The position numbers and the translations under genes are program-made. From assembly GCA_030038475.1 (NCBI GenBank), contig JASHOU010000123.1:1-64000 (forward strand): a stretch of 64,000 bases of DNA, written 5' to 3'. Below the pieces are notes generated by a model. It saw only the letters and a list, made by a program, of their open reading frames with translations. It had not been told where the DNA came from and searched no databases. Positions 60,544-64,000 of this stretch are shown here, piece by piece. Position 1 is the stretch's first letter; every line of letters starts with the position of its first letter. Source of the DNA: Terriglobales bacterium. GTDB taxonomy: Bacteria; Acidobacteriota; Terriglobia; Terriglobales; Acidobacteriaceae.

Positions 60544-62415
60544 ATGCGGAAGCGCGCCGCCATACTCGCGTACTTGGCCATTACCACGTTGGCATCGGGC
60601 CGTGATAAGCCACAAATCTGGCTGCAAGTCCGTACCCCGAATTTCATGGTTGTGACTGACGCCAATGAAAAAATTGGCCGGCGCATTGCCGACCAGTTGG
60701 AGCGTATGCGGGCCGTCTTTCAGCGCGTGCTTCCCCACGCGGTGCATGATAACGACTCTCCCGTCATTGTGATGGCTGTCAAAGACGAAAAGGACTTCCG
60801 CGCCCTCGAACCGCAAATCTATCTGGAAAAAGGACAAATCAAACTTGGTGGGCTTTTTCTGGCTACGCCGGACAAAAACTACATTCTTATGCGAGTGGAT
60901 GCGGAGGGCGACCACCCCTATGCCGTGATTTATCACGAGTACACGCACCTTCTCCTTCGCAAGTCCGCAGAATGGTTGCCCTTGTGGTTGAACGAGGGGT
61001 TGGCCGAGTTTTACGAGAATACGGACATCCACGATAAGGACGTCGCACTGGGCCAGCCGAATTCACAGAATTTGCAGTTGCTGCGCGAGAGCCGCCTTTT
61101 GCCGCTCGCTTCGCTGTTCGCGGTCGATCACAATTCGCCCTATTATCACGAGGAAAATAAAGCTTCCATTTTCTATGCCGAGTCGTGGGCGCTCACCCAT
61201 TATCTTTTCGTAAGAGACCACGCAGAGAACACGAACCATCTAGCCGACTACATGGACCTGTTACAGAGCAACGAAGATGCTGTAGCAGCGGCGACCCGGT
61301 CATTCGGCGATCTTAAGCAACTGCAGTCCTCGTTGGAGGGCTACATTCGCCAGGGAAGATACACCTTTTACCACGGGCCCATTTCCGTCGATGTCGACGA
61401 TACAGCGTTCAAGGTACAAAGCTTGACCGAGGAGCAGGCAGACGCGCGACGGGCCGATTTCCTCGCCTACGACGGACGCCTCGCCGATTCCCGTTCCCTT
61501 CTGGATCAGGTGCTGCACGAAGACCCACAGAACATTTCGGCGCATGAAACCATGGGATTCCTGGAGTTTCGCGCGGGCCATCTGGAGCAGGCGCAAAAAT
61601 GGTACGAACAGGCGGTAAAACTGGACTCGCAGAGCTATCTCGCCCACTACTACTACGCCGCAATCTCGATGAGCGAAGCGATTCCAGTCGACGACTCCCT
61701 GGTCGAAGCCAGTTTACGCACCGCAATCAAGCTCAATCCAACGTTTGCGCCGGCCTTCGATCGATTAGCGGCTTTCGAGGGTATGCTGCGGCAAAATCTC
61801 GAGGAAGCGCACATGATGTCGCTTTCGGCTGTGGAACTGGACCCGGGCAATGTCGGTTATCGCATCACCGCGGCCAACCTACTCATGCAATTGCAGCGAA
61901 GCGAGGATGCCGCGAATGTGCTGCGTATTGCCTTGCGCATGGCCAAGACGCCTTCGGAAACGGCGATGGTGCAAGGTTTTCTCACGCAAGTCGAGCAATA
62001 CACGAACGCCAGGCAACGGGCGACAGCACAAAATCGCCGTTCCGCCACGGAACCTATGGATAACGCTCCAGCGAACGTGGAAACGGTCGAGACCGCTGAT
62101 GGCGATGTTGAGGCGCCAGATGTTGACGAGCCGGAAGAAGTGCCAAAAGGGCCTCACCATTTCCTGTCCGGCACGCTGCATGATGTGCAGTGTCACACCC
62201 AAAAGATCGACATGGTGATCGCCGCGCAAGGCAAAACCATGCCATTGCACGCCGGCAATTTCTATAAGATTCAATACACAGCTCTCGGCTTCACGCTGCA
62301 GCATGATCTCAATCCCTGTAGAGATCTAGAGGGTAAATCCGCCAAGGTCGAATACATTGAATCTTCCTCCGACTCCAAAGTGTTGTACGTGGCCGCGATC
62401 GAAATCCACAAGTGA
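60544..62415 (+). CDS. TPR protein with a gluzincin-type peptidase domain (DUF1570-like)
   Basis: A 623-residue exported protein (signal MRKRAAILAYLAITTLASG). A peptidase-MA-like domain has HEYTH followed by LWLNEGLAEFYE, which gives both zinc His and the third Glu ligand. Tetratricopeptide repeats fill about 290-480 (ISAHETMGFLEFRAGHLEQAQKWYEQAV). An acidic linker and a C-terminal beta domain follow. It probably acts in the periplasm. The substrate is unknown. Confidence 0.78.
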   Translation: MRKRAAILAYLAITTLASGRDKPQIWLQVRTPNFMVVTDANEKIGRRIADQLERMRAVFQRVLPHAVHDNDSPVIVMAVKDEKDFRALEPQIYLEKGQIKLGGLFLATPDKNYILMRVDAEGDHPYAVIYHEYTHLLLRKSAEWLPLWLNEGLAEFYENTDIHDKDVALGQPNSQNLQLLRESRLLPLASLFAVDHNSPYYHEENKASIFYAESWALTHYLFVRDHAENTNHLADYMDLLQSNEDAVAAATRSFGDLKQLQSSLEGYIRQGRYTFYHGPISVDVDDTAFKVQSLTEEQADARRADFLAYDGRLADSRSLLDQVLHEDPQNISAHETMGFLEFRAGHLEQAQKWYEQAVKLDSQSYLAHYYYAAISMSEAIPVDDSLVEASLRTAIKLNPTFAPAFDRLAAFEGMLRQNLEEAHMMSLSAVELDPGNVGYRITAANLLMQLQRSEDAANVLRIALRMAKTPSETAMVQGFLTQVEQYTNARQRATAQNRRSATEPMDNAPANVETVETADGDVEAPDVDEPEEVPKGPHHFLSGTLHDVQCHTQKIDMVIAAQGKTMPLHAGNFYKIQYTALGFTLQHDLNPCRDLEGKSAKVEYIESSSDSKVLYVAAIEIHK

Positions 62416-62494
62416 GAGCTGCAACTCCCTTCGACATCATCACAGCGCAACCCTCCCCTGCAAACGTCATTCTCCTCTCCGTTACAATCACTTC

Positions 62495-63553
62495 GTGACT
62501 GATGACGTCAAACCGTTCCGTCTAACCGAGTCTGTTAAAGCTGCGGGTTGAGCGTCCAAGCTGAGTCCGGCGGCGCTGGACGCAGTGCTTGGGAAATTAG
62601 CCCGGCAACAGGACCCGAATGTGCTCATCGGCTTCGATCACGCCGACGACGCCGGAGTGTATCGGTTGACGCCGGAAACGGCGCTTGTGCAGACCGTCGA
62701 TTTTTTTACACCCATCGTGGACGACCCCTACACCTTCGGCCAGATCGCCGCCACCAATGCCCTCAGCGATGTCTACGCTATGGGTGGAAAACCGCTGACT
62801 TCGCTCGCGCTCGTCTGCTTTCCAGAAAAAGGCGATCTCGAAATTCTTGAGCGCATCCTTGCCGGCGGCTTGGCAAAGATGATCGAAGCCAGCTGCACGG
62901 TAGTCGGCGGACATAGCATCCGCGATGACGAGACAAAATTCGGATATTCGGTCACAGGAGTGATTCATCCCAAACGCGTGCTGGCAAATCAGGGCGCGCA
63001 ACCCGGCGACCGGTTGCTGTTTACCAAAGCTCTCGGGACGGGGGTCATTTCGACCGCAATCAAGAAAGGTGTGGCGCAGCCCGAATGGATCGACGCAGCC
63101 GTGGCCTCAATGACCACGTTGAATAAACGCGCAGCTGAAGTAATCGCAGATGTTGCGCGTTCCTGGTCTGTCCATGCTCTGACCGACGTTACCGGGTTCG
63201 GCCTGATCGGCCACGCGCGCGAAATGGCGCTGGCGTCAAACGTCAGCCTCATCGTTGAATCCGCCAACATTCTCGTGCTCGCGGGCGCTCTCGACTGCAT
63301 TCGCGCCGGCTATATTCCCGGTGGACTCAGAGCCAATCGCGATTTTGCCGAATGCCTGGTCGGTTACGATGAAACAGTTTCCGCCGATATCCGCACGCTT
63401 TTGTTCGACCCGCAAACTGCCGGAGGATTGCTGATCTCTGTCTCCTCCGAAGACGCCGTTCCGCTCACACGTGCCCTGCAGGATGCCAGTGTTCCTGTCC
63501 TCGAAATCGGCCGAGTCGTGGCACGTACCAAACCCTTAATCCGCGTGGCTTGA
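62495..63553 (+). CDS. selD: Selenide, water dikinase, itself a selenoprotein (Sec at UGA 62549-62551)
   Basis: Makes selenophosphate from selenide and ATP, the selenium donor for selenocysteine. The frame opens at GTG 62495 and reads VTDDVKPFRLTESVKAAG, then UGA at codon 19, then ASKLSPAALDAVL. The UGA falls exactly at the catalytic Cys17 of Escherichia coli SelD, with the essential Lys three residues later (Lys22), so it must be read as selenocysteine. The total is 352 residues. Downstream motifs are FDHADDAGVY, TVDFFTPIVDDPY and GGHSIRDDE. No selA, selB or selC lies in the window. The stop overlaps the convergent DinB gene by 18 bp. Confidence 0.95.
62552..62583 (+). promoter_or_regulatory. 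Candidate bacterial SECIS hairpin
   Basis: Immediately after the UGA, GCGTCCA (62552-62558) pairs with TGGACGC (62577-62583). A further G-C/C-G pair can form past a bulged A, leaving an 11-base apical loop with a central G. Position and size suit recruitment of SelB to read UGA as selenocysteine. Confidence 0.7.
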
Positions 63554-64000
63554 TTCGTGCTTCGCACCACCTCCCTGGATCAGTCCCCAGATATGCGCCA
63601 GATGATGATCATCGTGCTCGGCCACAAAAAATAAGTGGTCTACCAGCCGCATCGGAATTTTCAATCTCAGATGCGGAATGTTGCGTGCAAGAACCGTCGG
63701 GTCGATGCTATCCACTCGGTTCACCAGGCGCGACCGTGCGCTTCGAAATTGAGCCAGAATGTCACCGATTGAGCGCCGATTGTACTGCGCTTCCCACGTG
63801 CTTCGATTGGTCAGGTCAGCAACAGTAAGCTGCGATGCTCCCGCCAGATAGTCATCGACGCGTGCCATCCAAAGCGATTCGAGATCGACCAGATGCCCGG
63901 CATGTTCCTGGGCCGACCACTTTTCACCCGGCCTTGCCGCCAAAACTCCATGAGCCACGCCACGGCAAATTTCCTCCAAACGCGCCGGTGTGCCTCTCAA
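63536..64000 (-). CDS. DinB family protein, partial
   Basis: At least 155 codons, running off the right edge, so the N-terminus is not seen. Metal-binding histidines of the DinB/YfiT four-helix bundle are present: the first in QEHAGHLVDLE and two in EHDDHHLAHIWGL. These proteins are putative metal-dependent thiol transferases. It overlaps the end of selD by 18 bp in convergent orientation. Confidence 0.85.
   Translation of the reverse strand: MRGTPARLEEICRGVAHGVLAARPGEKWSAQEHAGHLVDLESLWMARVDDYLAGASQLTVADLTNRSTWEAQYNRRSIGDILAQFRSARSRLVNRVDSIDPTVLARNIPHLRLKIPMRLVDHLFFVAEHDDHHLAHIWGLIQGGGAKHESSHAD

Follow-up and report, generated by a model that had tools for sequence, protein, structure and literature searches.

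An in-frame UGA in selD of a Terriglobales bacterium and the conserved tract that follows it in UGA-type genes of its family

The selD gene and the selenocysteine genes of the genome

The window (the whole stretch of DNA analysed, 64,000 nucleotides) carries a gene for selenophosphate synthetase, selD, with a UGA codon in frame close to its start. The coding features are:

62495..63553, + strand: selD, selenophosphate synthetase; 352 residues if UGA is read as Sec (residue 19), stop codon TGA at 63551-63553
62549..62551, + strand: in-frame UGA, codon 19, at the position of the catalytic Cys; TGA in 76, Cys codon in 16 and unread in 1 of 93 loci
62558..62560, + strand: AAG codon of Lys22, three codons past the UGA, placed by translation and alignment

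The start codon of selD is the GTG at 62495-62497. Under the standard code the selD frame runs from GTG 62585 to 63553 (322 amino acids), without the catalytic N-terminus, just as an earlier note on this DNA had stated, and translation from GTG 62495 reproduces the peptide SVKAAG-U-ASKLSP that the note had read. NCBIfam calls both versions SelD. The TIGR00476 score is 367.2 bits with the UGA read through against 341.9 without (cut-off 125), and the match starts at profile position 1 only in the read-through version; in the standard frame it starts at position 31. When the N-terminus is aligned with SelD proteins, the UGA falls on Cys in both full-length SelD chains listed, 3u0o and 2yye, and each chain has Lys three residues past that Cys. 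The coordinates, this alignment and the recurrence of the UGA in relatives bear out the placing of the UGA at the catalytic position, and the AAG at 62558-62560 is the essential Lys that the note had expected three codons on.

Recurrence was assessed in a set of 120 genomes, this one and its relatives, of which 104 gave some match and 92 a SelD match at E <1e-60. The 93 loci read come from 91 genomes, two of which have a second copy; G023 was excluded, its SelD being a fragment that starts at query residue 98. The homologous codon is TGA in 76 loci, TGC in 13, TGT in 3 and unread in 1; at L160 (G014) the Sec column holds a gap, yet model R1, introduced below, finds the element there. An overlapping earlier set that included other phyla gave TGA in 93, TGC in 11 and TGT in 3 of the 107 loci readable among 110. 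L038, L040 and L061, whose N-terminal match was not usable, were dropped ahead of counting. With TGA in 76/93 loci, a wrong base does not reasonably account for the UGA. The 16 Cys genes require 9 label changes on a tree of 91 SelD rows (one of 92, with fewer than 200 residues, was excluded), in keeping with the repeated exchange of Sec for Cys that PMC1794560 describes. The same paper places SelD among the most widespread bacterial selenoproteins and counts, as of 2006, four selenoproteins from acidobacteria, belonging to three families; PMC12013277 lists an acidobacterial genome that has three selenoproteins.

Both types of selD are present in G012 (L142 Cys, L144 UGA) and in G070 (L168 Cys, L156 UGA). 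The Cys-type genes of these two genomes lie on contigs of 3-4 kb and elsewhere in the tree, and are either second copies or contamination, for which 5% is listed in both cases. At loci L139, L141, L144, L145, L147, L148, L151, L154, L156 and L159 the SelD match comes in two same-frame pieces that break near residue 220, as though tens of bases had been inserted; the SelD of the window has no such break.

The genome (4.46 Mb in 216 contigs, 98.4% complete) was searched for selA, selB and selC, as the earlier note had proposed, and all three are present. A tRNA-Sec lies at C123:32851-32943 (68 bits against a gathering score of 47) and is also called by ARAGORN as tRNA-SeC with anticodon tca. SelB, encoded at C211:4361-6274 (377.1 bits, cut-off 242.25), combines a GTPase domain of the EF-Tu type with two winged-helix domains of SelB, and SelA is encoded at C7:7229-8647 (532.6 bits, cut-off 267.9). 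Judged by its gene content, the organism decodes selenocysteine, and the note's view that it uses UGA as Sec is thereby supported, neither of the two findings that it had named as refuting having turned up. Across the 120 genomes, SelD (E <1e-60) and SelA (over cut-off) occur together in 88, SelD alone in 4, SelA alone in 6 and neither in 22; the SelD-only genomes (G019, G023, G083 and G115) are listed as 73-88% complete, and pieces of SelA are found in three of them. SelB is over its cut-off in 92 of the 120, and in most genomes with a Cys-type selD, SelA still exceeds its own. One genome listed as 100% complete, G087, has SelA and SelB over their cut-offs and no SelD match.

A forecast that other selenoproteins would be truncated by routine annotation came true once. 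Three molybdopterin oxidoreductase matches were found in the genome, and one of them contains an internal TGA. This is FdhA, a formate dehydrogenase with a frame of 1069 amino acids and U202 in the motif RVUHGPT (G000:C162:18380-21589, - strand, equal to L198:397-3606); under the standard code it falls into two frames, of 201 and 860 amino acids. Genes nearby encode FdhE, the large subunit of a nickel hydrogenase and an iron-sulphur protein that carries a transmembrane domain of formate dehydrogenase. After the UGA of fdhA, 18 nt on, comes the loop (AGUU) of a hairpin with a 7-bp stem, seen in 3 of 4 folded stretches. Neither a tRNA selenouridine synthase (TIGR03167) nor a SelW-like Rdx protein (PF10262) was matched in the genome.

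Judging from these sequence comparisons, the UGA of selD is most likely read as selenocysteine, and a Sec-containing SelD is in itself an already known kind of gene. Were the UGA a true stop or a sequence error, the product would start at GTG 62585, be 322 residues long and lack the catalytic residue. That frame still scores as SelD, and codon 31 is an invariant GTG throughout the 43 family UGA genes (the family is defined below), but TGA recurs in 76 of the 93 loci with Cys codons in 16 others, the protein sequence is conserved on both sides of the UGA, and tRNA-Sec, SelA and SelB are present; we consider this reading very improbable. Reassignment of UGA to another amino acid, as in genetic codes 4 or 25, would also produce conserved genes that contain in-frame UGA. 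Yet selD itself terminates at TGA 63551, both in-frame TGAs found (SelD and FdhA) fall at known Sec positions, and the presence of tRNA-Sec, SelA and SelB counts against this reading too, which we regard as even less probable than a stop or an error.

The hairpin after the UGA

Decoding of the UGA as Sec would call on an RNA signal, and the following elements were located in or near the codons that follow it:

62565..62581, + strand: core SECIS hairpin GUCCGGC / loop GGC / GCUGGAC, from pairing, compensatory changes and an energy of -10.8 kcal/mol
62555..62561, + strand: predicted middle helix, 5' strand UCCAAGC, pairing with 62587-62593
62587..62593, + strand: predicted middle helix, 3' strand GCUUGGG
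62544..62551, + strand: predicted basal helix, 5' strand CGGGUUGA, which contains the UGA and pairs with 62597-62604 in the minimum-energy fold
62597..62604, + strand: predicted basal helix, 3' strand UUAGCCCG, from the same minimum-energy fold

The core hairpin begins 13 nt past the UGA and pairs 62565-62571 with 62575-62581. It was assessed in alignment A2, whose 42 rows comprise 10 UGA loci from the family and 32 of the 33 from elsewhere in the class (L181, which has the same bases as L180, is omitted). Here 89.1% of cells are paired, 31 cells are changed on both sides and the covariation score is 0.265; none of 500 shuffles reaches this pairing, this number of double-changed cells or this score, and slid versions of the hairpin are only 20-51% paired. 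Counted by pairs, double changes are not unusual (58 of 500 shuffles are as high), and further pair types are not above shuffles (454 of 500 as high).

The bSECIS rules of PMC13188914, as set out in its Figure 2 legend, call for an upper stem of 4-16 bp, an apical loop of 3-9 nt, a G within the first two loop positions, a distance of 16-37 nt from UGA to apical loop and a minimum free energy of -7.5 kcal/mol or lower. The core hairpin conforms to these rules in its 7-bp stem, its 3-nt loop GGC with G first, the 20 nt (62552-62571) between UGA and loop, and the -10.8 kcal/mol of the isolated hairpin (62564-62583). No Rfam family was matched in 61000-64000, even with hits up to E 5 admitted.

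The earlier note had proposed a 7-bp stem straight after the UGA, which we take to be GCGTCCA (62552-62558) with TGGACGC (62577-62583). These strands are complementary, as claimed, but the pairing is not conserved: 59.2% of cells are paired across 42 class sequences, no better than in shuffles, and 74.5% within the family, again with no excess over shuffles. The conserved hairpin is the one at 62565-62581. At L050, L059, L063, L064, L068, L069 and L088, loci of other and mostly acidobacterial genomes, the UGA of selD is followed by a different sequence that contains a palindrome similar to CTTGCTCAAGTTTTGAGCAAG, perhaps another SECIS for this gene.

Below the core hairpin, the predicted basal helix holds all three UGA bases in 39 of 43 family UGA folds (all except L115, L126, L132 and L154), and in the minimum-energy fold of none of the 33 UGA sequences from elsewhere in the class. 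In alignment A1, which contains the 33 distinct sequences from the 43 family UGA loci, 95.7% of cells in the predicted lower helices are paired; there is hardly any variation, and 1 of 792 cells is changed on both sides. The two lowest pairs of the middle helix are each broken in 8 of 33 sequences with the 3' strand unchanged. Since this strand is fixed where its 5' partners differ, the sequence itself may be what matters. The GGT before the UGA also stands in 27 of the 33 UGA loci of the class that lie outside the family, and its frequency there means that the 5' strand has no specificity for the basal helix.

Folding energies did not single out the region, and the present reading does not lean on them. 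The fold of 62549-62590, a check suggested in the earlier note, was not significant against dinucleotide shuffles (z -1.29), nor was that of 62540-62600 (z -1.27). Synonymous recodings fold as well in 456 of 5000 cases, so that the energy is not exceptional by this measure, and across the 43 sequences the mean z is -1.18 with only 2 at -2 or below. As modelled here, the two lower helices have an even chance of being part of the signal.

A synonymous codon lock linked to the UGA

The conserved tract of the family extends 57 nt past the UGA and is marked by one further feature:

62564..62608, + strand: codons 24-38, synonymous sites locked in the UGA-type selD genes of the family, by pairwise same-codon rate

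The family is group f1 of our grouping of the relatives, in which 43 UGA and 7 Cys selD genes were compared; L190 (G042, 43% identical, TGC) was excluded. Between UGA genes, the rate at which the same codon is used given the same residue has a median of 1.00 over codons 24-38 against 0.47 over codons 50-350 (903 pairs), and the 455 UGA pairs whose proteins are less than 72% identical average 0.97 and 0.47. The Cys genes (21 pairs) have means of 0.39 in both regions and thus no lock; within the family, constraint on synonymous sites was seen only in UGA-type genes. Codons 24-38 are near-invariant in these, with the exception of codon 30, where the residue varies: GGG at 33, GCC at 36 and CGG at 37 occur in 43/43 and TTA at 35 in 42/43. 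Residue 36 is Ala in all 43 UGA genes and Pro in all 7 Cys genes of the family; in the rest of the class, 26 of 33 UGA genes have Pro there. The Cys genes L114, L121, L125 and L127 lie inside the UGA clade of the family, on branches of moderate support, and L135, L142 and L168 lie outside it. That nested Cys genes have no lock fits a release of RNA constraint after the change to Cys; its absence there could also have come about by recombination.

A search with R1, a model of the extended element, gave matches at E 7.7e-18 or better in 44 of the 120 genomes, all of them at selD by coordinates. Weaker matches (E 8.4e-9 to 0.005), also at selD, were found in 21 more genomes, two of them in Cys genes, and G036 has an extra weak match on the strand opposite its selD element. 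Of 396 genomes drawn from the phylum, 10 gave a match at E 1e-4 or better, 8 of them strong and from the same family and two weak and from another family. Four of the strongly matching genomes (G189, G236, G369 and G377) lie outside the model, and each has a UGA selD that differs from the window at 2-5 of 69 bases. The R1 search found no second copy of the element in the window's own genome, where the matches besides selD were one on the reverse strand at the same place (E 0.08) and one at E 3.3.

The lock at 62585-62608 might be unrelated to Sec and reflect another DNA or RNA signal that overlaps selD by chance, such as a protein-binding site, the target of an antisense RNA or an internal start at GTG 62585. 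Such a signal would explain why the lock sits on the 3' strand's own sequence even where the 5' partners vary, why the tract exceeds the published bacterial SECIS core, and why the UGA selD genes of other families in the class do without it. It would not readily explain why the lock is found in 43 UGA genes and is absent from the 7 Cys genes of the family, four of which are lock-free and nested in the UGA clade (the branches, again, being of moderate support); nor was any promoter- or terminator-like site seen in 62380-62700, or a second copy found in the same genome. We judge a signal of this kind rather unlikely, with enough in its favour to be kept in mind. A link between the tract and Sec decoding is the reading we prefer. 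It is the UGA-linked, family-specific, sequence-locked extension that goes beyond known Sec-SelD; no description of an extended acidobacterial selD SECIS was found in the literature searched, most subscription papers lying outside that search.

Proposed decoding of selD and its relation to known systems

Upstream of the start codon lies a possible promoter element:

62483..62488, + strand: TACAAT, a -10-like box 6 nt before the start codon, from its recurrence in the family

A TANAAT box lies 4-9 nt (mostly 6) ahead of the start codon, as picked by a simple rule, at 40 of 49 family loci; among 3430 background windows, 18 have one. A sigma-70 scan that required a -35 hexamer gave no promoter-like site in 62380-62700. 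The position of TACAAT together with the usual spacing would put the transcript start on GTG 62495, and the selD mRNA may thus be leaderless.

In the mechanism that we propose, translation would begin at GTG 62495, probably on a leaderless mRNA, and the UGA at codon 19 would be decoded by Sec-tRNA-Sec brought by SelB, which would bind the mRNA hairpin at 62565-62581. The product would be a SelD of full length that carries Sec at the active site, and its selenophosphate would allow SelA to make the Sec-tRNA-Sec that serves SelD itself and at least FdhA. From the sequence evidence we hold it to be nearly certain that this gene encodes a Sec-containing SelD decoded through the core hairpin. In the family, the signal appears to be extended 3' to about 62608, and the extension would most likely consist of the middle helix and the basal helix that holds the UGA, so that a long hairpin forms, which would favour recruitment of SelB over release factor.

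In fdhF of E. coli, the UGA lies at the base of the SECIS hairpin. According to PMC4513850, the fdhF model has SelB and Sec-tRNA bind the SECIS before the ribosome arrives, with the lower part then unwound; the bound SelB complex keeps RF2 out, and on a short mRNA with only the upper part of the SECIS, RF2 wins in vitro. A longer lower part in the family selD would fit this logic by analogy, and this would be the likeliest role of the extension. The two systems would be alike in having a hairpin whose lower part unwinds before the UGA is read (PMC4513850). They differ in gene, sequence and size, and the family tract is specific to selD and single in the search of its own genome.

Like known Sec-SelD (TIGR00476), the gene has UGA at the catalytic Cys with Lys three codons on, a SECIS-like hairpin after the UGA, and SelA, SelB and tRNA-Sec in the genome; unlike it, the family selD has the 3' extension, the locked codons 24-38 and Ala36. 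From bSECIS elements the family differs in a tract that reaches 57 nt past the UGA and in a UGA that is paired in the predicted fold, on both of which the rules in the Figure 2 legend of PMC13188914 are silent. The SRE and HRE stem-loops of eukaryotic SPS genes likewise stand beside the SelD/SPS UGA and disfavour termination, according to PMC4561486; those are eukaryotic, whereas the family element is in a bacterial gene with a SelB-type system.

When selenium runs short, a selenoprotein on which the supply of its own Sec precursor depends raises a problem of priority. As a speculation, and one that we think distinctly unlikely as it stands, the selD SECIS of the family, a gene-specific and sequence-locked element of about 60-70 nt that would pair its own UGA within a helix close to the 5' end of a leaderless transcript, could act as a selenium-responsive priority switch that makes selenophosphate synthetase first when Sec-tRNA is scarce, the need of the RNA overriding the preference of the protein (Pro36 to Ala36). 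For annotation, selD and fdhA of this group need a Sec-aware gene caller. The selD signal is longer and far more constrained than Cys-type selD of the family needs, and offers a handle on how bacteria rank their selenoproteins. If its link to the UGA holds, SECIS constraint in this family would extend no less than 57 nt beyond the UGA and may determine one residue of the protein.
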